A DNA stretch of 64,000 bases. Source: Streptomyces sp. NBC_00659. Its GTDB lineage: Bacteria; Actinomycetota; Actinomycetes; Streptomycetales; Streptomycetaceae. A program made the translations under genes and the position numbers. Location: the NCBI RefSeq assembly GCF_036226925.1, contig NZ_CP109031.1, positions 5,828,001-5,892,000 of the forward strand, read 5' to 3'. Positions 16,127 through 28,638 of the stretch are shown here, piece after piece. How positions within the stretch are numbered: the stretch's first letter is position 1; each line of letters starts with the position of its first letter. The notes under the pieces were generated by a model, which was not told the DNA's origin, searched no databases, and saw only the letters and a list, made by a program, of their open reading frames with translations.

Positions 16127-17535
<1,409 letters not shown>

Positions 17536-17620: not shown

Positions 17621-20600
17621 TCACCCGCTTCCGACCACCAGCTCCGCGAGATCCAGAAAAGCCTCCGTCGTTCCCGTGCGCAGGCGGCCCAACTCCCGGA
17701 ATCCTGGAGACCGCAGCGACATGTCGAACGGGACGACGACGATCTGCGCGATGGGGGTGCCGAGACGCAGTGCCAGGTCGCCTGGGCGCACCCGTTGGCC
17801 TGCGCCCTCGATCTCCGAAGCCACCACGATCGCCTGGTCCGCAAGCGTGCGGCGTCCCGAGTTGCGCAGCCCGTCGAGCAGGGAAGCGGAGGAGTCGAGG
17901 AACCGCTCGGTGGTGCCGCAGCAGAGGATCAGCTGGTCCGTGAGGGTCAGAGCGACCTCGGCGGACCGGTCGAGCCGCGTGGGTGACCAGTCGGTCAGGA
18001 CGAAGGAGTAGTAGGGCGCCGTCTGGGCCAGCACGCGCGCGTACTCCTGAGCGTGTACCGGGTTGGAATTGAAGTGGCCCGAACGGTGCGCGATCACTTC
18101 CAGGCCCGATGCGAAATGGCTGGTGAGGACCTTGATCTCGTCGTACGTGACATCCGGCGCCAGCGCGGCGAGGTCGCGCAGAGTGGCTCGGTTGCGAGCG
18201 GTCAGGAAGGAGTCGAGCGCTCCTTCCGACGGCGCCCCGTCAAGGGCCAGGACAGGTTCGTCACGAACGGCGGCGAGCAGCGAGCCGAGGACCATGGTCG
18301 TGGTGGCCCGGCCGCTGTAGTGGTAGGCGCCCACGAGAGTGATGCGCCTGCTCCGGAGCAGCGGCTTGCGCAGCCGCTGCAGACGAGCGTCGCGGCCGGT
18401 GCCGCCGAACCCGAACCGGGGCAGGCGGAGCGAGGGGGTACGCCGCTTCGGCCGGGCACCGGTGGGCGGCAGAGCGAGCGGTATGTCCGTCAGGGCGTGG
18501 GCCGGCGTCGCGACAGGCGCTTCCACGTTGTCCCGCGTCGCCCGGGCCATGGCGATGTACCGGGCCATGATGTCCGCGACCTCTCCGGCGATGGGGCGCT
18601 GCGCCGGATCGGGGTCCAGACAGCGGAGCACGAGCAGCCTGAGCTGCTCCCATGTGTCGCCCTGCCACATGTGCATGCCCTCGGGCAGACCCGGCATGTC
18701 CCAGCCCGCCTTACTGCTGACGAGCTGGAGCATCTCGCCGAGGGACCGGACGTTGTCCGCGGAGGTCGGCACGGGGCCCGCTCCGAGGTAGCGTCCGTCG
18801 ACGACGCAGTCGGACAGGTTGCCAAGGATCACGGAGCGCCGTAGGACGAACACAATGTCGGGACTGAAGTCCGCGAGGACCAGGCCATTGACGTGACAGA
18901 CGGCGAGGGCGCTCGCCAGATGCCAGGCGACGACGAGGCCGGCGATCTTGTCGAACGGGGCCCTGCTGTCGAGCGAGGCCCGGCTGAAGATCTCCGACAG
19001 ACGGGGCGGCTGCGCGTCGGGTGCGTCGGCATCGGCGATGGGTGCCATCGCCAGCCAGGGCGGGGACGCGTCGAGCGCGGTGCCGTACAGCGCGGGCGCG
19101 TACTGTCCGCTGAGCCGGGTGAGAACCTCGGCCTCCACCTCGATCAACCGTGCGTTCGCCGCGGGGAGATCGGGGCGGGGGACACGGAGCACGGCCATCT
19201 CGTTCTGCGCGGTCGTACCCTGGTACACCACTGTCCGACGGCCCCGCCGCCGTCCTCGAAGCGTGTACGGCCCCAACTCGCGTGGGTCCTCGTCCGTCAG
19301 CGGCTTCCAGTCGTCCGGCCCGGCCGCGGGCGTCCCCTGCTCGGTGGGTTTGAGAGCGGCGGGTGGGCCGTCGACCGACACGCCGAAGCGGGTCAGCAGT
19401 CGCCGCTCGACACTGGTGAACGGGCTTTGGGAAACAGGCAGTTGGGCGTTGCCGTCCGGGTGGGCCAGCCAGGCGGGAAAGTCGGGTGAATTGCCGGCGA
19501 GTTGCTCCAGGCGGAGGCCGATGCTGCGGCTCGTCTTCAGGAGTTCGGCCTGCGGGACCGCGTCGAGGAGTACGGATTTCGACTCGTCGGAGAAGTCGAA
19601 GACGAGGTGCTTGGCGGGCAGCGGGCCGGGTACGGGCGCCGGATGCGGCCGGATGAGGCCCCCCAGGAACACTTCGGCGAGGTGCGCGGTGCGAGCGGGC
19701 CACGGGACGGCCGTCTGCACCAGCCGCATCACCGGTACCGACAGTGGTGAGACGGCAGCCAGATGGGCGGCGAGGCGATATGCCTCGGGAGTCGCGGCGT
19801 CGCGGAACTGCTGGGTGTTGTTCAGGTCGCGGGAGGCGGCGGCCACCGTGTATCGGCTGGGGCGAGCAAGTAGGGGAAGCTCCACGGTGGCCCCCGGAGA
19901 GGCGAGCAGATGCGCCCAGGCCCGCAGAGCGGCGGCCGTCGGTTCCAGGACCGGGACGCGTACGCCGGTGAACTCGGCGAGGTCGGGCGGCAGGACCCGG
20001 TCGGTGATCTCCCAGGAGGTGTTGGCGCCACCGACCCGCCGGGTGGTCGCCTGCCAGCGTTCGGCGTGAATGCCGGATGCCTCCCACAGCTCGGGTGGCA
20101 GAGTGTGCAACAGAGCGACTGGACCGCGTGCGGCCCACATCGCCAGAAGGTCGTGCATGGTCCCGTTGCGCCAGCCGGCGCCCATCCCGTCGCTGACGAC
20201 CAGAACCAGGGTGCGGCCCGAGGGATCCCGTACCGTACTCAGCGGCATCTGCGCGCTGTCGTGCTGGAAGGGCCGGGCGCGGAGTCGCGGCTCGTGGGCA
20301 TCGCGGGTGTCCAGACCGAGGACGCGCGTCGTCGCAAAGGCGCCCAGTCGTTCGAGCAGGGTGCGCAGTTCGGTGCCGAGCCGGTTCCACAGCAGCATCG
20401 ACAGGCCGTCGTCCACGAGCAGCACCAGATTCAGCCAGCGTTCCTGCACAGGCCGCTGCACCACGTCGGGGAGCCGCGTCTCGGCAAGTTCGGTGGCAGT
20501 GCGCTCCTCGTCGATCTCCAGTCGGTGCCGGCTGGCCAGTCGGCGACGCAACGGCCTCAACGCGCGTCCGAGTTCGAGTTCGTCGTCGAGGACCTTGCCC

Positions 20601-20959
20601 TCGGGAACCCGTATGGGCAGTGCTCTGCGCGCTTCCCGTTCGGGCCGACGCAGCCGGATCTCGGGGACAGGATTCTGGCGTGCCGCCGCATACAAGGACG
20701 GCTCGGTCAGATCAGGCAGGTCCGGGGTGTCGGACTCGGGTCCCGGCCGTGACAGGGGCTGTTCCGCGGGCTCGGGGGTGTCGGCCCGCGGCGCGGGCTG
20801 CGGGGATGGGCGAAGGCCCCGGCTCAGGGGAGCCGCATCGGTGGCAGGCAGGCGGCGGGCGAGCCAGAGCACGTCGAGGACCAGGTCCGCGTCCAGCTCC
20901 TGGCCGCCGGCGGCGAGGACCCTAAGGGCCTCGCCGAGTCGCTCGCCCTCGCCCGCCAT
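17621..20959 (-). CDS. SAV_2336-type protein with vWA-like, pseudokinase and ParA-like domains
   Basis: 1112 residues. Residues 170-400 form a SAV_2336 N-terminal-type vWA-like domain with a degenerate metal site (LLVDDGLSM, 180-188; VVSDGMG, 254-260). Residues ~390-535 are helical. Residues 563-803 follow a protein-kinase outline but lack catalytic residues: the ATP lysine site reads MAVLRV, the HRD loop reads LADFSPDIVF, and DFG is replaced by GNLSD. Residues 871-1112 resemble MinD/ParA-type P-loop NTPases, but the Walker A lysines are gone (SGRATTT). It may be a scaffold rather than an enzyme. Last gene of the operon: ATG at 20959, two bases after the MoxR stop, with a GTG at 20965 overlapping it. 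Confidence 0.82.
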   Translation of the reverse strand: MAGEGERLGEALRVLAAGGQELDADLVLDVLWLARRLPATDAAPLSRGLRPSPQPAPRADTPEPAEQPLSRPGPESDTPDLPDLTEPSLYAAARQNPVPEIRLRRPEREARRALPIRVPEGKVLDDELELGRALRPLRRRLASRHRLEIDEERTATELAETRLPDVVQRPVQERWLNLVLLVDDGLSMLLWNRLGTELRTLLERLGAFATTRVLGLDTRDAHEPRLRARPFQHDSAQMPLSTVRDPSGRTLVLVVSDGMGAGWRNGTMHDLLAMWAARGPVALLHTLPPELWEASGIHAERWQATTRRVGGANTSWEITDRVLPPDLAEFTGVRVPVLEPTAAALRAWAHLLASPGATVELPLLARPSRYTVAAASRDLNNTQQFRDAATPEAYRLAAHLAAVSPLSVPVMRLVQTAVPWPARTAHLAEVFLGGLIRPHPAPVPGPLPAKHLVFDFSDESKSVLLDAVPQAELLKTSRSIGLRLEQLAGNSPDFPAWLAHPDGNAQLPVSQSPFTSVERRLLTRFGVSVDGPPAALKPTEQGTPAAGPDDWKPLTDEDPRELGPYTLRGRRRGRRTVVYQGTTAQNEMAVLRVPRPDLPAANARLIEVEAEVLTRLSGQYAPALYGTALDASPPWLAMAPIADADAPDAQPPRLSEIFSRASLDSRAPFDKIAGLVVAWHLASALAVCHVNGLVLADFSPDIVFVLRRSVILGNLSDCVVDGRYLGAGPVPTSADNVRSLGEMLQLVSSKAGWDMPGLPEGMHMWQGDTWEQLRLLVLRCLDPDPAQRPIAGEVADIMARYIAMARATRDNVEAPVATPAHALTDIPLALPPTGARPKRRTPSLRLPRFGFGGTGRDARLQRLRKPLLRSRRITLVGAYHYSGRATTTMVLGSLLAAVRDEPVLALDGAPSEGALDSFLTARNRATLRDLAALAPDVTYDEIKVLTSHFASGLEVIAHRSGHFNSNPVHAQEYARVLAQTAPYYSFVLTDWSPTRLDRSAEVALTLTDQLILCCGTTERFLDSSASLLDGLRNSGRRTLADQAIVVASEIEGAGQRVRPGDLALRLGTPIAQIVVVPFDMSLRSPGFRELGRLRTGTTEAFLDLAELVVGSG

Positions 20960-20961
20960 GG

Positions 20962-21912
20962 TCACATCGCCCCTGTGAGCTGGTGGAGGACAGCGTCGAG
21001 AAGGCCCTCGGCGTTCAGATCGACGCCGCCGACACGCAGGAAGACGGCATTGAGGAGCTGGTCGGTGGCGAGTTCGCCCGGGGCCCGGCGGCGCAGGAAC
21101 GCGTCCAGCAGGTCGTCCGCCTCCCGCAGCGCGTCCTCGCCCAGATGGGCCGCGACGATGGCACGCAGCCGAGCCTCGTCCGGCACCGGCAGTTCGAGGC
21201 GGACACAGCGGCGCAGGAACGCGGGCGGGAATTCGCGCTCTCCGTTGCTGGTGATGACGACGACCGGGAACTCCGCACACTGGATGCGCCCTTGGTGGAT
21301 GCCCACAGTGCCGCGGTGGTCGGCGGTCTGCACCTCCACGTCGGCGACGTCCTCGGGGAGCCTGGTGAGCTCGGGGATGTCGAAGACCCCCTCTTCGAAG
21401 ACGGTGAGCAGGTCGTTGGGAAGATCGACATCGCCTTTGTCCATCTCGTCGATGAGCAGGGCGCGGGGGGCTGCGGAGGGGACCAGCGCGGTGCCGAGCG
21501 GACCGAGCCGGATGAACGTGCCGATGGACGGCTCGCGTTCACCCCGGTCGCGGCTCAGCGTCGTCTCGCGCAGTCGGCCGATGGCGTCGTACTGGTAGAG
21601 GGCCTCGGGCACGGTGGAACGGCTGTTGATGGGCCAGCGCAGCAGCTCACCCAGGTTCAACTCGTGAGCCACCGCCCGAGCCAGTGACGACTTCCCGGTA
21701 CCGGCCGGGCCGGTCACCAGAAGCGGACGGCGCAGATGCAGTGCGGCATTGACGACGTCGGCGTGCTGCGGCTCGATCAGATACGGCAGCTCGGGCCGGA
21801 CCACGTGAGCCGGGGCGAAGCGCCGCCAGGGCGGCGCCGGCGGAAGGGCGACGGCTCGGGGCGCGCCGTTTCCGCGGAACAGGCGCCAGTCGGCGTCGGG
21901 AGCGGTCGTCAT
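20962..21912 (-). CDS. MoxR-type AAA+ ATPase
   Basis: 316 residues. Walker A GPAGTGKS is at 68-75, Walker B LLIDEMDK at 152-159 and a sensor-1 segment VVVITSNGEREFPPAFLRRC in the C-terminal half; the arginine pair after PAFLRR is the expected finger. MoxR ATPases work as hexameric chaperone-like machines with vWA partners. Here the partner is the downstream SAV_2336-type protein and the upstream trypsin-VMAP-like protein. It lies 52 bp after the protease gene and abuts the next gene. All catalytic motifs are intact, making it the one apparently active NTPase of the operon. Confidence 0.93.
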   Translation of the reverse strand: MTTAPDADWRLFRGNGAPRAVALPPAPPWRRFAPAHVVRPELPYLIEPQHADVVNAALHLRRPLLVTGPAGTGKSSLARAVAHELNLGELLRWPINSRSTVPEALYQYDAIGRLRETTLSRDRGEREPSIGTFIRLGPLGTALVPSAAPRALLIDEMDKGDVDLPNDLLTVFEEGVFDIPELTRLPEDVADVEVQTADHRGTVGIHQGRIQCAEFPVVVITSNGEREFPPAFLRRCVRLELPVPDEARLRAIVAAHLGEDALREADDLLDAFLRRRAPGELATDQLLNAVFLRVGGVDLNAEGLLDAVLHQLTGAM

Positions 21913-21964
21913 GCCCTCTCCTGTAGTTCGGAAGTCAGAGGTGGAATGGGTCTGGGAGTGGGCT

Positions 21965-24112
21965 TCATGCGCTCTCCTGCGGTTCCGTCAGATGCAGTCG
22001 GGGCACGGTGCGGTCGGCGTCGGCCCAGGCGAGGACGGGGCGGCCGGGGAAGTCATGCGGGTTGACCATGGTCTTGGCGCGGTAGGAGCGGACGCCGTCA
22101 GGCAGTTCACGCGTGGCGACCTCCGCCATGTGCTTGACGACGTGCGAGTCCTTGTCCCGCCCCCGGTCCCACACCACTACTGGTACCCCGACAGCCAGGC
22201 AGACCTGCACGATGCCGTCGCGCAGACCCGGAGGTACGTCGACGGAGACGCGCACAGCGTCGAGCTTCTCCATCAGTTCGTAGTAAATCTGGTTCGGATC
22301 CTTGGACGCGTCCGAGAAGACCAGGGTTGCTCCGGAGTCGAGACGACTCCACCGACGGCGCCATTCGGGGAGAAAACGCTCGTGGCGGCGCAGGAGTTCC
22401 GGACAGTGCACGACGAGAGGAAACTCCACCCCGAGCACACCGGGCACGATCTCGTCGGGGGCCCGGCCCTCCCATTCGTCGACAGGCAGGTTGAGGCTGG
22501 CGCGGTCCACCAGGACCTCTACGAGAGGGCGTTGGTCATGAGGGGCGGACGGGGCGAGGGACTCCAGGACCCGCAGCAGCTCGCGGGCCGCCTCGGACGC
22601 CGTGCAGGAGTCGGCTGTGGCCGAGACCTGCCGGGGCCCCGCGCCCTCGTCGCACCAGATCCGCAGCCGGTGGCGCCCTGCCTCGGCCCGCCGCACCTCG
22701 ACCAGGACCCGCACCCGAGTCGAACGCGTACGTATGTCTCGGGCCCAGTCCTGGGCATCCGAGCGCCGCTCCGCGAGGGCCGAGCGCGGAATGCCGAGCC
22801 GGGCGGTCACTCCGTCCGACCAGAGACGAAGCTCGGCGCGTTTCGGTCCCGGGCACAGCATGGCCACGTACTCCATGACGCGCAGCAGGGCCGGGACCCG
22901 CGGCTCACCGCCGTCCGAGTGGCCGTCGCCGGGCAGCGTCTCCAGGTGGTCGAGCAGCGTGTCGAGGCTGCCCCCTCCGGAAAACGCGGCCACCAGCGGC
23001 AGCGCCGCGCGCACCGCTTCTCCGAACCGCCCGAGCACGGTGCGGTCGACGCCACGCAGCAGCTTGTGCAGGCGGGTGTGTTCGCGGGGGGAGAGGAGCC
23101 GGGGCCCACGTGAGAGATGGCCCGCGATCAGGAAGCGGTCGGCGGCTGCCGGGTCCCGGCGCCGCAGGGTCTCGGTGAACGCCGCGAGAGCCCGAGGATG
23201 GGTGAGGAGGAAGTCCGCGAACTCCTCGACCGTGGGCGGTGTCACCTCGCCGCCGTGGCCGACACCGCAGACGCGCGTCAGCTGCCGGGCGGCGTCGCCG
23301 CGCCCGGACGGCGACGGGAACGCGGCCTCCAACGCCTCGACGAGCAGCAGGTGGGCCGGATCGTCGGGGTCGGAGGGGGCGACATCCTGGAGATGGAACG
23401 CGCCCACGGCACGCAGCTCGGTCTCGATGTGCTGCCAGGGGATGCCCCAACTGCGCCGGATCAGGTGCTGGGGGCTGTGCGCGGCGTGGCCACCGGTGCG
23501 CGGATCGTGGGGAGGCATGAAGTGCGCCACGACGAGACCGACCACGGCCCTGTTCCGGGGGCACCACAGCGGGCCGCCACTGTAGCCCGGGCCGACGGCC
23601 ATTCCGGTCGCCTCGCCGTCGAGGTATCCCACAGGTCCGTCTGCGGACTTGACGGTCAGATCGGCGAACGTCGCTCCGCCCGCGCTGCCGTGCCAGGCCC
23701 GTACCTCCTGGCCCGCCTCCATGGCGGTCCTCGGGGCCGCCGGGCGCACGGTGTCTCCCGGTGTGTCGACCCGTAGTACGGCGAGGTCGCCGAGCCAGTG
23801 GTCGTCGCCTGCGTGCACCATCCCGCCATCCCGGGTTCGCGGCGCGATCCAGTGCGCCACGCGTGCGGCATGCCGCTGCTGTCCGTGCGGCCCTCTGAAC
23901 TCGACGGTGATTTCATCCGGTCCCGGAGCCCGCGACTCGAACAGCTCTTTGCCCAGGGCGTCGTTGACCACATGCGCGCACGTCACCACAGTGTCGGGGC
24001 CGAGAATCAGCCCGCCCCCGGCCACCTTGCCGTCCCGCGAGCGACGGATCGACGCCAGGCACGCGACCGGGTTGCCGTCATCCGGGAACCCGAGGGGTCG
24101 AAACCACCCCAC
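21965..24112 (-). CDS. trypsin-like serine protease with VMAP-like C-terminal region
   Basis: 715 residues. Residues 10-200 form a trypsin-fold protease with an intact triad: H47 (TCAHVV), D109 (LGDLAVL) and S178 (GYSGGPLW). There is no signal peptide, so it should act in the cytosol. The middle (230-430) is helical. The C-terminal ~250 residues resemble the VMAP-C domain of vWA-MoxR-associated proteins, including PLVEVLVDRASLNLPVDEW and the VPVVVWDRG and RPVLAWADADR stretches. The GTG at 24112 begins three bases after the upstream stop. In VMAP systems the protease is thought to be an effector released upon sensing; that role is inferred here. Confidence 0.87.
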   Translation of the reverse strand: MGWFRPLGFPDDGNPVACLASIRRSRDGKVAGGGLILGPDTVVTCAHVVNDALGKELFESRAPGPDEITVEFRGPHGQQRHAARVAHWIAPRTRDGGMVHAGDDHWLGDLAVLRVDTPGDTVRPAAPRTAMEAGQEVRAWHGSAGGATFADLTVKSADGPVGYLDGEATGMAVGPGYSGGPLWCPRNRAVVGLVVAHFMPPHDPRTGGHAAHSPQHLIRRSWGIPWQHIETELRAVGAFHLQDVAPSDPDDPAHLLLVEALEAAFPSPSGRGDAARQLTRVCGVGHGGEVTPPTVEEFADFLLTHPRALAAFTETLRRRDPAAADRFLIAGHLSRGPRLLSPREHTRLHKLLRGVDRTVLGRFGEAVRAALPLVAAFSGGGSLDTLLDHLETLPGDGHSDGGEPRVPALLRVMEYVAMLCPGPKRAELRLWSDGVTARLGIPRSALAERRSDAQDWARDIRTRSTRVRVLVEVRRAEAGRHRLRIWCDEGAGPRQVSATADSCTASEAARELLRVLESLAPSAPHDQRPLVEVLVDRASLNLPVDEWEGRAPDEIVPGVLGVEFPLVVHCPELLRRHERFLPEWRRRWSRLDSGATLVFSDASKDPNQIYYELMEKLDAVRVSVDVPPGLRDGIVQVCLAVGVPVVVWDRGRDKDSHVVKHMAEVATRELPDGVRSYRAKTMVNPHDFPGRPVLAWADADRTVPRLHLTEPQESA

Positions 24113-24115
24113 GGG

Positions 24116-24541
24116 TCACTCCCCGCCCGGCGCTGCAACACCATCGTTGCCCGTCGTCGGTTTCCAGCTGGCGCTCACAGTGAGGTGGGCTTGGCCGTTG
24201 CCGCCGACGATCCCGAGCTTGAGGTCCTGTCCGACCTGGACGCCGAAGGTCACGCTCAGTTCGGCAGGCGGGTCAGGCGCGGCCGTCACCGCGTCGTGCA
24301 CCTCTTGGAGCAGTGGACCGAGCGGCCGGAGCGCATGGCGCAGGGTGCCGACCGCGAACGCCGCGACTGCTCCGCCGCCGGAGGCCACGGGGACAGCGGT
24401 CCCCATGCCCTCGGGACGGTCTTCGTCCCCGCTCGGGCCGGAGACCGTCACGCCGTGGACGGGGGCGAGGAGGAACCGGACGGGCGTGCCGTCTTCGAAC
24501 TGTTCCTCGAACTGCGATTCTGTTGAGGTGGACACGGTCAA
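24116..24541 (-). CDS. Trypco1 / CU044_2847-like small protein
   Basis: About 141 residues (TTG at 24541) or 139 (GTG at 24535); neither has a good ribosome site, so the start is uncertain. It resembles the trypsin-co-occurring domain 1 family: an N-terminal strand region with FEDGTPVRFLLAPV, a central helix (FAVGTLRHALRPLGPLLQEVHDA) and a C-terminal ELSVTFGVQVGQDLKLGI motif. Such proteins are regularly encoded beside trypsin-like proteases in these conflict loci and may regulate or present them. First gene of the operon, three bases before the protease gene. Confidence 0.85.
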   Translation of the reverse strand: MTVSTSTESQFEEQFEDGTPVRFLLAPVHGVTVSGPSGDEDRPEGMGTAVPVASGGGAVAAFAVGTLRHALRPLGPLLQEVHDAVTAAPDPPAELSVTFGVQVGQDLKLGIVGGNGQAHLTVSASWKPTTGNDGVAAPGGE

Positions 24542-24927
24542 TATTGTGGCCGAGAGAGGCTCCGACAGCGGTACATCTGCCCAACTCGGTGGCTAATTCA
24601 ATGCATTGAGCATCGGTAGGGGGCATTGCCCGTTCTCGGGGGCACCCGGCCGCCGCCTCCCCGGTGCGCGGAACGGCTTCGTCCTGCCGGAACCCGCATG
24701 CTGCTGTCCGGGTCGGGGATTCCGGCTGACCGAGGGCGGAAAGGCGTACGGAAAGTACGTATCGAACGCATGTGCTTTGTCAGCATAAAAAGGGGTGCTG
24801 ATGGCGGAAACCTCACTATCGTCGTTACGTACGGTCCGCCGGGGGGCAAGGGCGCGGCAGGGGTTCGGCGGGAAGCGCGCCGAGATCGGGCCGTCGGGTG
24901 GGGCCGACGGGGAGCGGGGGTGACGGG
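24542..24927. other. intergenic region upstream of the VMAP-like operon
   Basis: 386 bp separating two divergent genes. It contains a 12-bp perfect palindrome at 24598-24609 and the inverted repeat TCAGCA/TGCTGA (24780-24785/24796-24801) around an AT-rich core, plus a less GC-rich stretch at 24745-24825 likely to hold a promoter. Short open frames here lack ribosome sites. Confidence 0.5.
24598..24609. promoter_or_regulatory. candidate operator palindrome
   Basis: TCAATGCATTGA is a perfect 12-bp palindrome about 57-74 bp upstream of the Trypco1-like start. It is AT-rich against its surroundings, so a regulator site is plausible, but no cognate regulator is encoded in the operon. Confidence 0.35.
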
Positions 24928-25938
24928 ATGGCGCAGCGATGGGACGCGGACCGTGGGCAGTGGGTCGACGACGGTACGGGCCGGACGGACGGGGTTCAGG
25001 ACGGTGTGGACGCCGGCGGGGCACCGCCGGCCGGGGACCAGTGGTGGGCGGCGGCCACGCAGGCGGGTCCGCTGCGGCCTGACGCCTATCCCCCCGCGGG
25101 CTCCGCTCCGCCACAGCCGCCACAGCCGCCGCACGGGCAACAGCAGCCATGGGCCCAGTCCCAGCAGCAGGCCCAGGCCGCCTGGTCGCACCAGCAGTCC
25201 CAGCCGCATACATGGCCCGGTGGCGTCGTGCCGCCCGGTGGCCGGCCGCCGGGGTCCGGTGACTCGCGGCGGCTGCTCCTGGTGATCGTGGCCGTGGCCG
25301 TGCTGGCGGGCGGTGTGGGCGGCGGACTGTGGGCGTTGACCCGGGGCGACTCGGCGAGGCATCCGGGCGCGCACCCTTCCACGCCCTCGGTCACCGTCAC
25401 GGCGTCGCAGCCCGGCTCGGTCCCGGAGACCTCGAACAGCTCCGGCGGCGAGGGCGTGTACACCGCCCCGGCCGTGACCACCGCCCCGGCACCGGCTCCC
25501 GGGTACAGCCGCTCGGTCGATCCGGTCGGCTACACCGTGGACGTGCCGGACGGCTGGGCGCGCGAGGAGAAGCAGGGCAAGCTGGCGCCCGTCGTCACCT
25601 ACACGGCGCCCGACGGAAACCGCAGACTCCTGGTGTTCGAGATCATGGAGCCCTCGGCGGCGGAATCCTCGGCGCAGGCCGAGAGCATCGCGCAGGGGGC
25701 CAAGGACTACCAGTACCTGGACCGGCGGAGCGGCACCGGCTGGACGGAGTTCAGCTACAGCTACTACGACAAGCGGTACGGAGCCACCCAGACCGTCGAC
25801 CACCGTTTCCAGGCCGCCGACGGCACTCCGTACGCCATCGTCGCGAGCGGTCCGCCGGGCACGGACATGTCCGGGCAGCTCGCGACGGCCGTCAACTCCT
25901 TCTGCCCGACCGGGGCCGCCTGCGTGAACGCCGCCTGA
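24928..25938 (+). CDS. hypothetical single-pass membrane protein
   Basis: 336 residues. Residues 25-110 are a Pro/Gln/Ala-rich cytosolic leader. One membrane helix lies at 115-137 (LLLVIVAVAVLAGGVGGGLW). The external C-terminal half (about 185-336) is a compact folded-looking domain beginning GYTVDVPDGWAREEKQGK, the pattern of small beta-rich extracytoplasmic domains in actinobacterial lipoproteins and kinases; it ends with a Cys pair (FCPTGAACV). No catalytic motif is recognised. The ATG at 24928 has GGAGCGGGGG upstream. Divergent from the VMAP-like operon; no clear link to it. Confidence 0.78.
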   Translation: MAQRWDADRGQWVDDGTGRTDGVQDGVDAGGAPPAGDQWWAAATQAGPLRPDAYPPAGSAPPQPPQPPHGQQQPWAQSQQQAQAAWSHQQSQPHTWPGGVVPPGGRPPGSGDSRRLLLVIVAVAVLAGGVGGGLWALTRGDSARHPGAHPSTPSVTVTASQPGSVPETSNSSGGEGVYTAPAVTTAPAPAPGYSRSVDPVGYTVDVPDGWAREEKQGKLAPVVTYTAPDGNRRLLVFEIMEPSAAESSAQAESIAQGAKDYQYLDRRSGTGWTEFSYSYYDKRYGATQTVDHRFQAADGTPYAIVASGPPGTDMSGQLATAVNSFCPTGAACVNAA

Positions 25939-25958: not shown

Positions 25959-26906
25959 CTAGCGCGCGAGAGGTTCCCGGCCGGCTGCGGGCAGCCGCTT
26001 CTCGAACCAGTGCGCCGCGTAGACGTTGTCGTCGTAGCGCGGGATCTCCGTGTATCCGCACGCCCGGTACATCTCCTGGGCCTCGGTGAGCGCGGCGTGC
26101 GTGTCGAGTCGTACGACGGTGAACCCGCGTTCCGCGGCCCGCTGTTCGAGGCCGTCGAGGATGCGGCGCCCGAGGCCCAGCCGACGGGCCCCGGGGTCCA
26201 CCCACACATGGCGGATCTCGCCCGCCCCCGGGTCGAGACGGCGCAGTGCGCCGCAGCCCACGGGGCGGCCCTCCTCATAGGCGACGAGGAAGGCGCCCGC
26301 GTCGCCCGACACCTCGTGGGGCCGGACGAGGGTGGCGGGGTCGAAGCCCTCGGGGAACCGTTCGTCGATGTCGGCCGCGTACGCGTCGAGGCAGGCGCGG
26401 GCGTCGGGGGAGGCGCCGTCGACCGTCTCGACGGTGATCGCGGCGAGCCGGAGCAGCCGGTGGGCGGTGTCCAGGGCCGTGGTCAGTTCCGCTCGCCGGG
26501 GAGCGTCGAGACCGCTGAGCAGTCCCGCGGCGAGTGCGTCGGCCAGCCGGTTCTGCTCCTTGATCTCGGCCCGTCCGGCGGCCGTGAGGTCGGCGACCCG
26601 CAGTCGGCTGTCACCGGGATGGACGCTCAGCCGGACGAGGCCCTGTGTCTCCAGGGCCCGCATCATCCGGCTCAAGTACCCGGCGTCCAGCCCGAGTCTG
26701 GCCCGCAGTTCGCGCAGGGAGGCTCCCGTCCCGCCGATCTCGAACAGCAGCCGGGCCTCGCCGAGCGGGCGGTCCTGGCCGAGGTAGTGGTCGTCGAGGG
26801 CTCCGATGCGCCGCGTGAAGTAGCGGTTGAACCGCCGCAGCGCCGTCACCTGGTCCGCTGACACTGGCTCCATCTTCCTTCGGCTCTCTGTCCGGCTCGG
26901 GTCCAT
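25959..26906 (-). CDS. MarR-GNAT fusion regulator
   Basis: 315 residues. Residues 15-150 form a MarR winged helix (LSRMMRALETQGLVRLSVHPGDSR includes the recognition helix and wing). Residues 160-305 form a GNAT acetyltransferase with the acetyl-CoA loop RRLGLGRR at 241-248 and the terminal ACGYTEI strand. The ATG at 26906 has AAGGAAAGAGG upstream. A 25-bp near-perfect palindrome overlaps the region just 5' of the start, consistent with autoregulation. It is divergent from the betaine operon, its most likely target. The acetyltransferase substrate is unknown. Confidence 0.9.
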   Translation of the reverse strand: MDPSRTESRRKMEPVSADQVTALRRFNRYFTRRIGALDDHYLGQDRPLGEARLLFEIGGTGASLRELRARLGLDAGYLSRMMRALETQGLVRLSVHPGDSRLRVADLTAAGRAEIKEQNRLADALAAGLLSGLDAPRRAELTTALDTAHRLLRLAAITVETVDGASPDARACLDAYAADIDERFPEGFDPATLVRPHEVSGDAGAFLVAYEEGRPVGCGALRRLDPGAGEIRHVWVDPGARRLGLGRRILDGLEQRAAERGFTVVRLDTHAALTEAQEMYRACGYTEIPRYDDNVYAAHWFEKRLPAAGREPLAR

Positions 26907-27126: not shown

Positions 27127-28638
27127 ATGGCCGGACAGCAGGCAGAACAGACCATCCACGTGGGCGGCGAGTGGCGCGCGGCGCTCTCCGGCGCGACGCG
27201 CGAGATCCTCGACCCCGCCGATGCCGAGCCGTTCGCCGTGGCCGCGGAAGGGGACGAGAAGGACGCGGACCTCGCGGTCGCCGCCGCGCGCCGCGCCTTC
27301 GACGAGGGGCCCTGGCCGCGGACCCCCGTCGCCGAACGCGCCGCCCTGCTGCGCCGCGTGGCCGGTCTCCTCGTCCGCGACCGCGAGGAACTCGGGCTGC
27401 TCGAAAGCCGTGACGCGGGCAAGACCCTGGAGGAGGGGCGCATCGACATCGACTGTGTCGCCGACGCCTTCCGCTACTTCGCCGACCTCGTGGTGGGGGA
27501 GGGCGGCGGCCGCGTCGTGGACGCCGGTTCGTCCGACGTCCACAGCGTCGTCGTGCACGAGCCCGTCGGGGTGTGCGCCCTGATCACTCCCTGGAACTAT
27601 CCGCTGCTGCAGGCAAGTTGGAAGATCGCTCCGGCCCTCGCCGCCGGCAACACCTTCGTGGTCAAGCCGAGCGAGATCACTCCGCTGACGACCGTCGCCC
27701 TGCTCCGGCTGCTGGCCGAGGCGGGTCTCCCCGACGGTGTCGCGGGGCTTGTCACCGGCCCCGGGCACACCGTCGGCGCCCGCCTCGCCGAGCACCCCGA
27801 CGTCGACCTCGTCTCCTTCACCGGCGGCCTGGCCAGCGGCACGAAGGTGGCGCGCGCCGCCGCCGACACGGTCAAGAAGGTCGCGCTCGAACTCGGCGGC
27901 AAGAACCCCAACATCGTCTTCGCCGACGCCTGTGCCACCGAGGAGGGCTTCGACACCGCTGTCGACCAGGCACTCAACGCCGCCTTCATCCACAGCGGTC
28001 AGGTGTGCTCGGCCGGTTCGCGGCTCATCGTCGAGGAGACGCTGCGCGAACGCTTCGTCGCCGAACTCGCCCGCAGGGCAGGTGCGATCCGGCTCGGGCG
28101 CGGCACCGAGGACGGCGTCGAGTGCGGCCCGCTGGTCTCCGAGCAGCAGCGCGCGAAGACCGAGGCGTACGTCGCCTCCGCGCTGGCCGAGGGCGCGGTC
28201 CTGCGGGCCGGCGGCAAGCGGCCCGAGCCGTCCGAAGTCCGGCCCGCCGGCGGCTTCTTCTACGAGCCGACCGTGCTCGACCAGTGCCACCGCGGGATGC
28301 GGGTCGTCCGCGAGGAGGTCTTCGGGCCCGTTCTGACCGTGGAGACGTTCGCCACCGAGAGCGAGGCCGTCGCGCTCGCCAACGACACCGAGTACGGCCT
28401 CGCGGGCGCCGTCTGGACCACCGACGCCGGACGGGCCCGCCGTGTCGCGGGGCGGCTGCGTCACGGCACCGTCTGGATCAACGACTTCCACCCCTACCTG
28501 CCGCAGGCGGAGTGGGGCGGCTTCGGCCGCAGCGGCGTCGGGCGTGAACTCGGCCCCGCCGGACTCGCCGAGTACCGCGAGGCCAAGCACATCTACCAGA
28601 ACCTCGCGCCCGCGCCCGTCCGCTGGTTCGCCGGCTGA
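27127..28638 (+). CDS. betaine-aldehyde dehydrogenase-like aldehyde dehydrogenase
   Basis: 503 residues, full-length NAD(P)-dependent ALDH. It has the ITPWNYPLLQ and ALELGGKNPN motifs (catalytic Glu in ELGG) and the catalytic Cys in HSGQVCSAGSR, plus GFFYEPTVL and EEVFGPVL. It is closest in appearance to GbsA/BetB enzymes that oxidise betaine aldehyde to glycine betaine. The ATG has GGAAGGC 8 bases upstream. Position ahead of a GMC oxidoreductase and a betaine-type ABC transporter supports the substrate assignment, which is otherwise inference. Confidence 0.88.
   Translation: MAGQQAEQTIHVGGEWRAALSGATREILDPADAEPFAVAAEGDEKDADLAVAAARRAFDEGPWPRTPVAERAALLRRVAGLLVRDREELGLLESRDAGKTLEEGRIDIDCVADAFRYFADLVVGEGGGRVVDAGSSDVHSVVVHEPVGVCALITPWNYPLLQASWKIAPALAAGNTFVVKPSEITPLTTVALLRLLAEAGLPDGVAGLVTGPGHTVGARLAEHPDVDLVSFTGGLASGTKVARAAADTVKKVALELGGKNPNIVFADACATEEGFDTAVDQALNAAFIHSGQVCSAGSRLIVEETLRERFVAELARRAGAIRLGRGTEDGVECGPLVSEQQRAKTEAYVASALAEGAVLRAGGKRPEPSEVRPAGGFFYEPTVLDQCHRGMRVVREEVFGPVLTVETFATESEAVALANDTEYGLAGAVWTTDAGRARRVAGRLRHGTVWINDFHPYLPQAEWGGFGRSGVGRELGPAGLAEYREAKHIYQNLAPAPVRWFAG

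Follow-up and report, generated by a model that had tools for sequence, protein, structure and literature searches.

A trypsin-type VMAP ternary conflict system in Streptomyces sp. NBC_00659, and a possible kinship of its VMAP-C domain with separase and CHAT proteases

VMAP ternary systems (vWA-MoxR-VMAP) are conflict systems that were predicted by Kaur et al. in 2020 (PMC7159879) and are reported there to be widespread in multicellular bacteria. In the parts of that paper on which we draw here and below, the systems are defined by a strict gene order, 5'-VMAP-MoxR-vWA-3'. The VMAP comprises an N-terminal peptidase, a variable helical middle (VMAP-M) and VMAP-C, which could not be related to any known domain, and VMAPs with a trypsin-type peptidase are often joined by Trypco1 or Trypco2. 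The MoxR ATPase carries the aromatic N-terminal motifs WxhapG and PsWRxa. The vWA domain has two strand-end aspartates and an N-terminal motif, [D/E]xxx[D/E]xxxa, and the vWA proteins carry changing C-terminal domains, among which are kinases, for the most part inactive, that are coupled to inactive MinD/ParA domains. The MoxR ternary systems of Thiohalocapsa that are linked to diversity-generating retroelements also combine a trypsin-VMAP, MoxR and a vWA protein; for these, the consulted part of PMC10907252 proposes the vWA protein as sensor and the VMAP peptidase as effector. Here, we analysed a stretch of 64,000 nucleotides from Streptomyces sp. NBC_00659 (contig NZ_CP109031.1, positions 5,828,001 to 5,892,000), hereafter the window, in which a four-gene operon almost certainly encodes a VMAP ternary conflict system. 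The operon belongs to a known system type, and the analysis suggests a new structural lead on its VMAP-C domain.

The operon lies on the minus strand, from position 24541 down to 17621, in the order Trypco1, trypsin-VMAP, MoxR and SAV_2336-type vWA protein. The first gene (24116..24541, TTG start) encodes a 141-residue protein with the trypsin-co-occurring domain 1, Trypco1, which matches PF19493 with 64.7 bits (cut-off 24.6, E 1.2e-17) and NF041216 with an E-value of 2.2e-13. After 3 bp it is followed by the VMAP gene (21965..24112), whose product of 715 residues is composed of three parts. The trypsin-like peptidase domain (residues 33-193; 23534..24016) matches Trypsin_2, PF13365, with 48.5 bits (cut-off 27.6, E 1.9e-12). 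The VMAP-M region (residues 205-465; 22718..23500) is M0-like, with 24.0 bits to VMAP-M0, slightly below the cut-off of 25.9, and in the structure model its helices continue until VMAP-C opens with its first strand. VMAP-C (residues 466-699; 22016..22717) matches PF20028 over residues 479-699 with 133.8 bits (cut-off 27, E 1.1e-38). Inspected by eye, the VMAP has no signal peptide. A gap of 52 bp leads to the gene for the MoxR AAA+ ATPase (20962..21912, 316 residues), which matches AAA_5, PF07728, with 28.9 bits (cut-off 22, E 1.3e-6) and whose Walker A and Walker B motifs, as read by eye, are intact. The last gene begins 2 bp further on and encodes the vWA component of 1112 residues (17621..20959), whose N-terminal region, consisting of the vWA domain and a linker (residues 27-489; 19493..20881), matches SAV_2336_NTERM, NF041121, with 367.5 bits (cut-off 200, E 1.1e-109). 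An upstream GTG, which gives the longest open reading frame (ORF), was rejected as its start in favour of the ATG at 20959; close orthologues are mostly 1.1-1.15 kaa long. An earlier note on this DNA had described the operon with the same extent, order, strand and gaps of 2-52 bp, and the ORF coordinates bear this out, as the profile matches above curated cut-offs do for its Trypco1, trypsin, VMAP-C and SAV_2336 assignments and for its MoxR ATPase. PADLOC returned no confident match for the operon.

Of the motifs that mark the described systems, those of MoxR can also be recognised: it has WRLFRG at residues 9-14 and PPWRRF at 27-32, which by eye fit the motifs of Kaur et al. The match to the N-terminal vWA motif is ambiguous, as DLVLDVLW, at about residue 30, offers a D-xxx-D pair but its aromatic residue is displaced by one position. 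The only Pfam vWA match in this protein is VWA_CoxE, at an E-value of 0.0084, below the cut-off. Residues of metal ion-dependent adhesion site type, assigned by eye as D183, S187 and D257, are each present in 57/57 proteins, so that SAV_2336_NTERM is itself the vWA component; the earlier note had placed it correctly in the vWA position but had taken it for a substitute. The same genes recur in the same order among relatives, which argues against a chance grouping. In 57 genus loci, a count that leaves out the paralogue loci L118 and L119, Trypco1 is kept in 57, MoxR in 57 and the vWA gene in 56; in a set of 80 loci from named genomes, some of which end at contig ends, the counts are 77, 80 and 77. 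The operon thus shares with the systems of PMC7159879 the gene order, VMAP-C, the N-terminal trypsin with neighbouring Trypco1, the MoxR motifs, a variable vWA C-terminus, the inactive kinase with inactive MinD/ParA, and the presence of several systems per genome. Nothing essential differs; in this clade the kinase-ParA tail is kept instead of being exchanged. The identification as a VMAP-type conflict system in the earlier note therefore stands, while its view of the system as undescribed does not, since the same components and tails are already in that paper.

The C-terminal half of the vWA protein contains two domains that were absent from the domain list of the earlier note, a pseudokinase (residues 546-825; 18485..19324) and a degenerate MinD/ParA-like domain (residues 861-1112; 17624..18379). 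Neither segment of the window protein has a Pfam match of its own. With profiles built from 26 relatives, matches were obtained to kinases (best E 1.6e-6) and MinD/ParA proteins (E 1e-5) of the PDB, and when the 26 were scanned singly Pkinase was found in 4 and AAA_31 in 6. The features of an active Ser/Thr kinase (VAIK lysine, HRD, DFG) are not found in the tail: the kinase lysine position is arginine in 52 of 57 proteins and never lysine. The P-loop lysine of an active MinD/ParA is arginine in the window protein, and the 57 proteins have R (43), C (10), K (2) or another residue (2) at this position. These correspondences were assigned by eye, and the 57 include 8 proteins with no ParA match, 2 of them also with no kinase match, whose columns mean little. 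One ParA-like tail, in locus L091 (L091:6603-7334), differs from nearly all others in that its P-loop, GGVGKTT, is intact; not all ParA-like domains are dead, therefore. In seven more distant relatives, picked for their different-looking tails, we found kinase and TPR (L092, L100), kinase, TIR and TPR (L097), kinase alone (L101), nothing recognised (L099), and only sub-cut-off matches, AAA/STAND-like in L108 and zinc ribbon in L112. No lectin domain was found by profile scan in the window protein, which in this and in its dead kinase-ParA tail differs from the Thiohalocapsa systems as presented in the consulted part of PMC10907252. Two copies in relatives are possibly broken or misassembled: L175 has short open frames (MoxR 166 residues, vWA protein 710 residues) and L150 has a vWA frame of 855 residues.

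Besides MoxR, the trypsin is the sole enzyme of the operon with a preserved site, the catalytic positions of kinase and ParA being gone in nearly all proteins. Its triad, His47, Asp109 and Ser178, which the earlier note had rightly called intact, is kept in 58/58 VMAPs of the genus set, the window included, and in 79/79, 78/78 and 80/80 non-gap rows, respectively, of an 80-row set that overlaps with it.

The fold predicted for VMAP-C in one model (predicted template modelling score, pTM, 0.60), compared with one aligner, resembles the protease domains of CHAT and separase proteins. VMAP-C may thus be a worn-down relative of these caspase-like proteases. We lean slightly towards a wider reading, in which every VMAP core would be a former TPR-CHAT/separase-like protease, made up of the helical VMAP-M and a caspase-fold VMAP-C that has lost its catalytic activity, and a live peptidase, in this case trypsin, would have been added to it. 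The caspase fold is that of TPR-CHAT/Csx29 of Craspase and of eukaryotic separase; VMAP-C, unlike them, has neither a conserved His or Cys nor a sequence signal, the VMAP operon has no known RNA-guided partner, and the N-terminal trypsin would be the source of proteolysis. In 51 VMAP-C rows no His is conserved in half or more, while Cys570 and Cys638, counted by alignment column and not placed on the structure, occur in 34 and 32 rows, but drop to 2 and 1 among the 19 distant rows. In the absence of a conserved His-Cys dyad, VMAP-C is not classed as a CHAT protease. Several observations weigh against the kinship: five sequence tests gave no similarity of VMAP-C to CHAT or separase, CHAT was not among the 50 Foldseek matches listed for the model, and the pTM is 0.60. 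VMAP-C could instead be an unrelated fold with a general alpha/beta resemblance, as the silent sequence tests, the poor Foldseek E-values and the dependence on one model would allow; the high-scoring rows of the fold comparison, moreover, stem from few distinct proteins and are not independent. We regard this alternative as less likely than not.

The operon is neither strain-specific nor universal. It lies between mdh, a malate dehydrogenase gene convergent with it (16546..17535, plus strand, PF02866/PF00056), and an aldehyde dehydrogenase gene (27127..28638, plus strand, PF00171), probably betB, to judge by the GMC oxidoreductase gene that adjoins it. mdh was found in 383 of 392 genus genomes (E<=1e-100) and a betB-like gene in 316 (E<=1e-220). 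In the 117 genomes with both coordinates listed on the same contig and strand, the mdh-betB gap is between 251 bp and 28.9 kb long, with a median of 3.6 kb, and it holds the operon in 7; outside this sample, mdh also adjoins the operon at two more genus loci, L063 and L075. Scanning species genomes yielded 249 relatives, from which 80 loci were kept; mdh adjoins the operon in 14 of the 48 loci with a VMAP identity of at least 50%. The strain-specific insertion proposed in the earlier note is contradicted by these 14 named genomes, and other relatives carry the operon elsewhere; the comparison of mdh-betB spacing that it had suggested shows that the operon is not at this place in all Streptomyces. 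On the tree, 5 changes suffice to explain adjacency to mdh, compared with 13.2 when the labels are shuffled (0/500 as low), in a test where near relatives make clustering easy and loci broken by contig ends are scored as lacking mdh. Inheritance thus accounts for most of the placement beside mdh, along with several moves or losses.

Most of the genus sample has no close copy: the window VMAP was matched at E<=1e-60 in 59 of the 392 genomes, and a full-length VMAP at 47% identity or more is present in 32, its own included. Beyond the genus VMAP-C is rarer, with 12 of 246 phylum-wide genomes, 8 of these 12 within the genus. The genome of the window has three VMAP-C loci and three SAV_2336 loci. 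Its further VMAP-C, MoxR and SAV_2336 loci, L118 and L119, at 6.33 and 7.81 Mb, have diverged MoxR proteins (46 and 49% identity). Since lengths and contents differ among genomes, the mdh-betB gap is a variable place. We retrieved 17 gaps, for the most part those of greatest length, and scanned a selection of proteins from 8 of them. Three, from other Streptomyces genomes, contain Tubulin_2 operons with a similar arrangement of genes (L294:693-14682, L295:2-14352, L308:1-11690). The L294 copy further includes genes for a vWA protein, for PycTM (a Pycsar effector) and for several proteins with no Pfam match, and the L308 copy adjoins the VMAP operon; transporters and a ferritin-like gene were seen in other gaps. 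In the window, a plus-strand ORF for a proline/glutamine-rich protein of 346 residues (24898-25938), with no Pfam match at E 1e-5, lies upstream of the operon, and a minus-strand MarR-GNAT acetyltransferase gene (25962-26906) lies between the operon and the betB-like gene.

From the domains, gene order, residue patterns and predicted fold seen here we infer a complex, a trigger, a direction of signalling and an outcome, for which we see about an even chance. MoxR hexamers and the vWA protein would form a chaperone/co-chaperone switch docked on VMAP-C, itself a worn-down separase/CHAT-type domain retained as a regulatory platform. The dead kinase and ParA-like domains would serve as bait that mimics host signalling and partition proteins, and the trypsin would be kept off by Trypco1 or VMAP-C. 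When an invader factor bound the bait domains, or the VMAP-M region, ATP hydrolysis by MoxR would remodel the complex and free the trypsin, which could cleave host or invader proteins and so limit spread through the mycelium. The vWA protein is favoured as the sensor because the trypsin site is preserved, whereas the tail, enzymatically dead in nearly all proteins, is nonetheless retained and is different farther out, as expected of bait. In the close clade (47-49 rows) the switch parts are conserved, with mean pairwise identities of 0.82 for MoxR, 0.74 for vWA-L, 0.71 for vWA and 0.65 for VMAP-C, with Trypco1 at 0.63; M (0.55), trypsin, the vWA N-extension and kinase (0.54 each) and ParA (0.52) diverge. 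Against this scheme, the trypsin-M half and the vWA tail both diverge fast, so sensor and effector are not told apart; the tail is kept in 31/31 of the closest genus loci (L061-L091), so that a rapid exchange of bait or effectors is not seen among them; 2 of the 57 ParA-like domains retain the P-loop lysine; and no experimental test of a VMAP system appeared among the papers listed in literature searches.

Signals might also flow in reverse, as the authors of PMC7159879 modelled in the part consulted: VMAP-M would sense the invader, MoxR-vWA would set the threshold, and cleavage of the vWA protein by the trypsin would release its dead kinase and ParA domains to act as dominant-negative effectors. 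The linker at residues 826-860, the least conserved of seven stretches compared (median identity 0.34), is what an accessible cleavage site might look like, and the tails of distant relatives differ. However, neither the kinase nor the ParA fold, both dead, can work by catalysis, and no cleavage site emerged from our analysis; we consider this direction possible but the less probable of the two. Across a clade of many species the four-gene unit remains stable, tail included, and the guanine-plus-cytosine content of the operon is similar to that of its surroundings, as would suit a Streptomyces switch that acts inside the cell in development or stress proteolysis and has no part in defence. Such a role is improbable, given the patchy distribution, the different places of the operon in different genomes, the three systems of this genome, and a divergence that exceeds that of the neighbouring gene: among 13 strains in which mdh adjoins the operon, identity is 0.96 for mdh and 0.76, 0.64 and 0.63 for VMAP-C, trypsin and M.

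The operon is compact and complete, it offers a clear catalytic residue for mutation, and its genus is amenable to culture and engineering; two opposite published models could be told apart in it. Activation of a CHAT protease by rearrangement within a sensing complex is described in the consulted part of PMC9729208. If VMAP-C is a pseudo-CHAT/separase domain, MoxR-vWA would regulate a pseudo-caspase platform, much as CHAT and separase are controlled by guide RNA complexes or securin. This would link two bacterial immunity families that have been described separately, VMAP-C would gain an origin and a role, and VMAP systems would be tied to the caspase-fold immunity of Craspase and to separase, whose complex structures would guide experiments.

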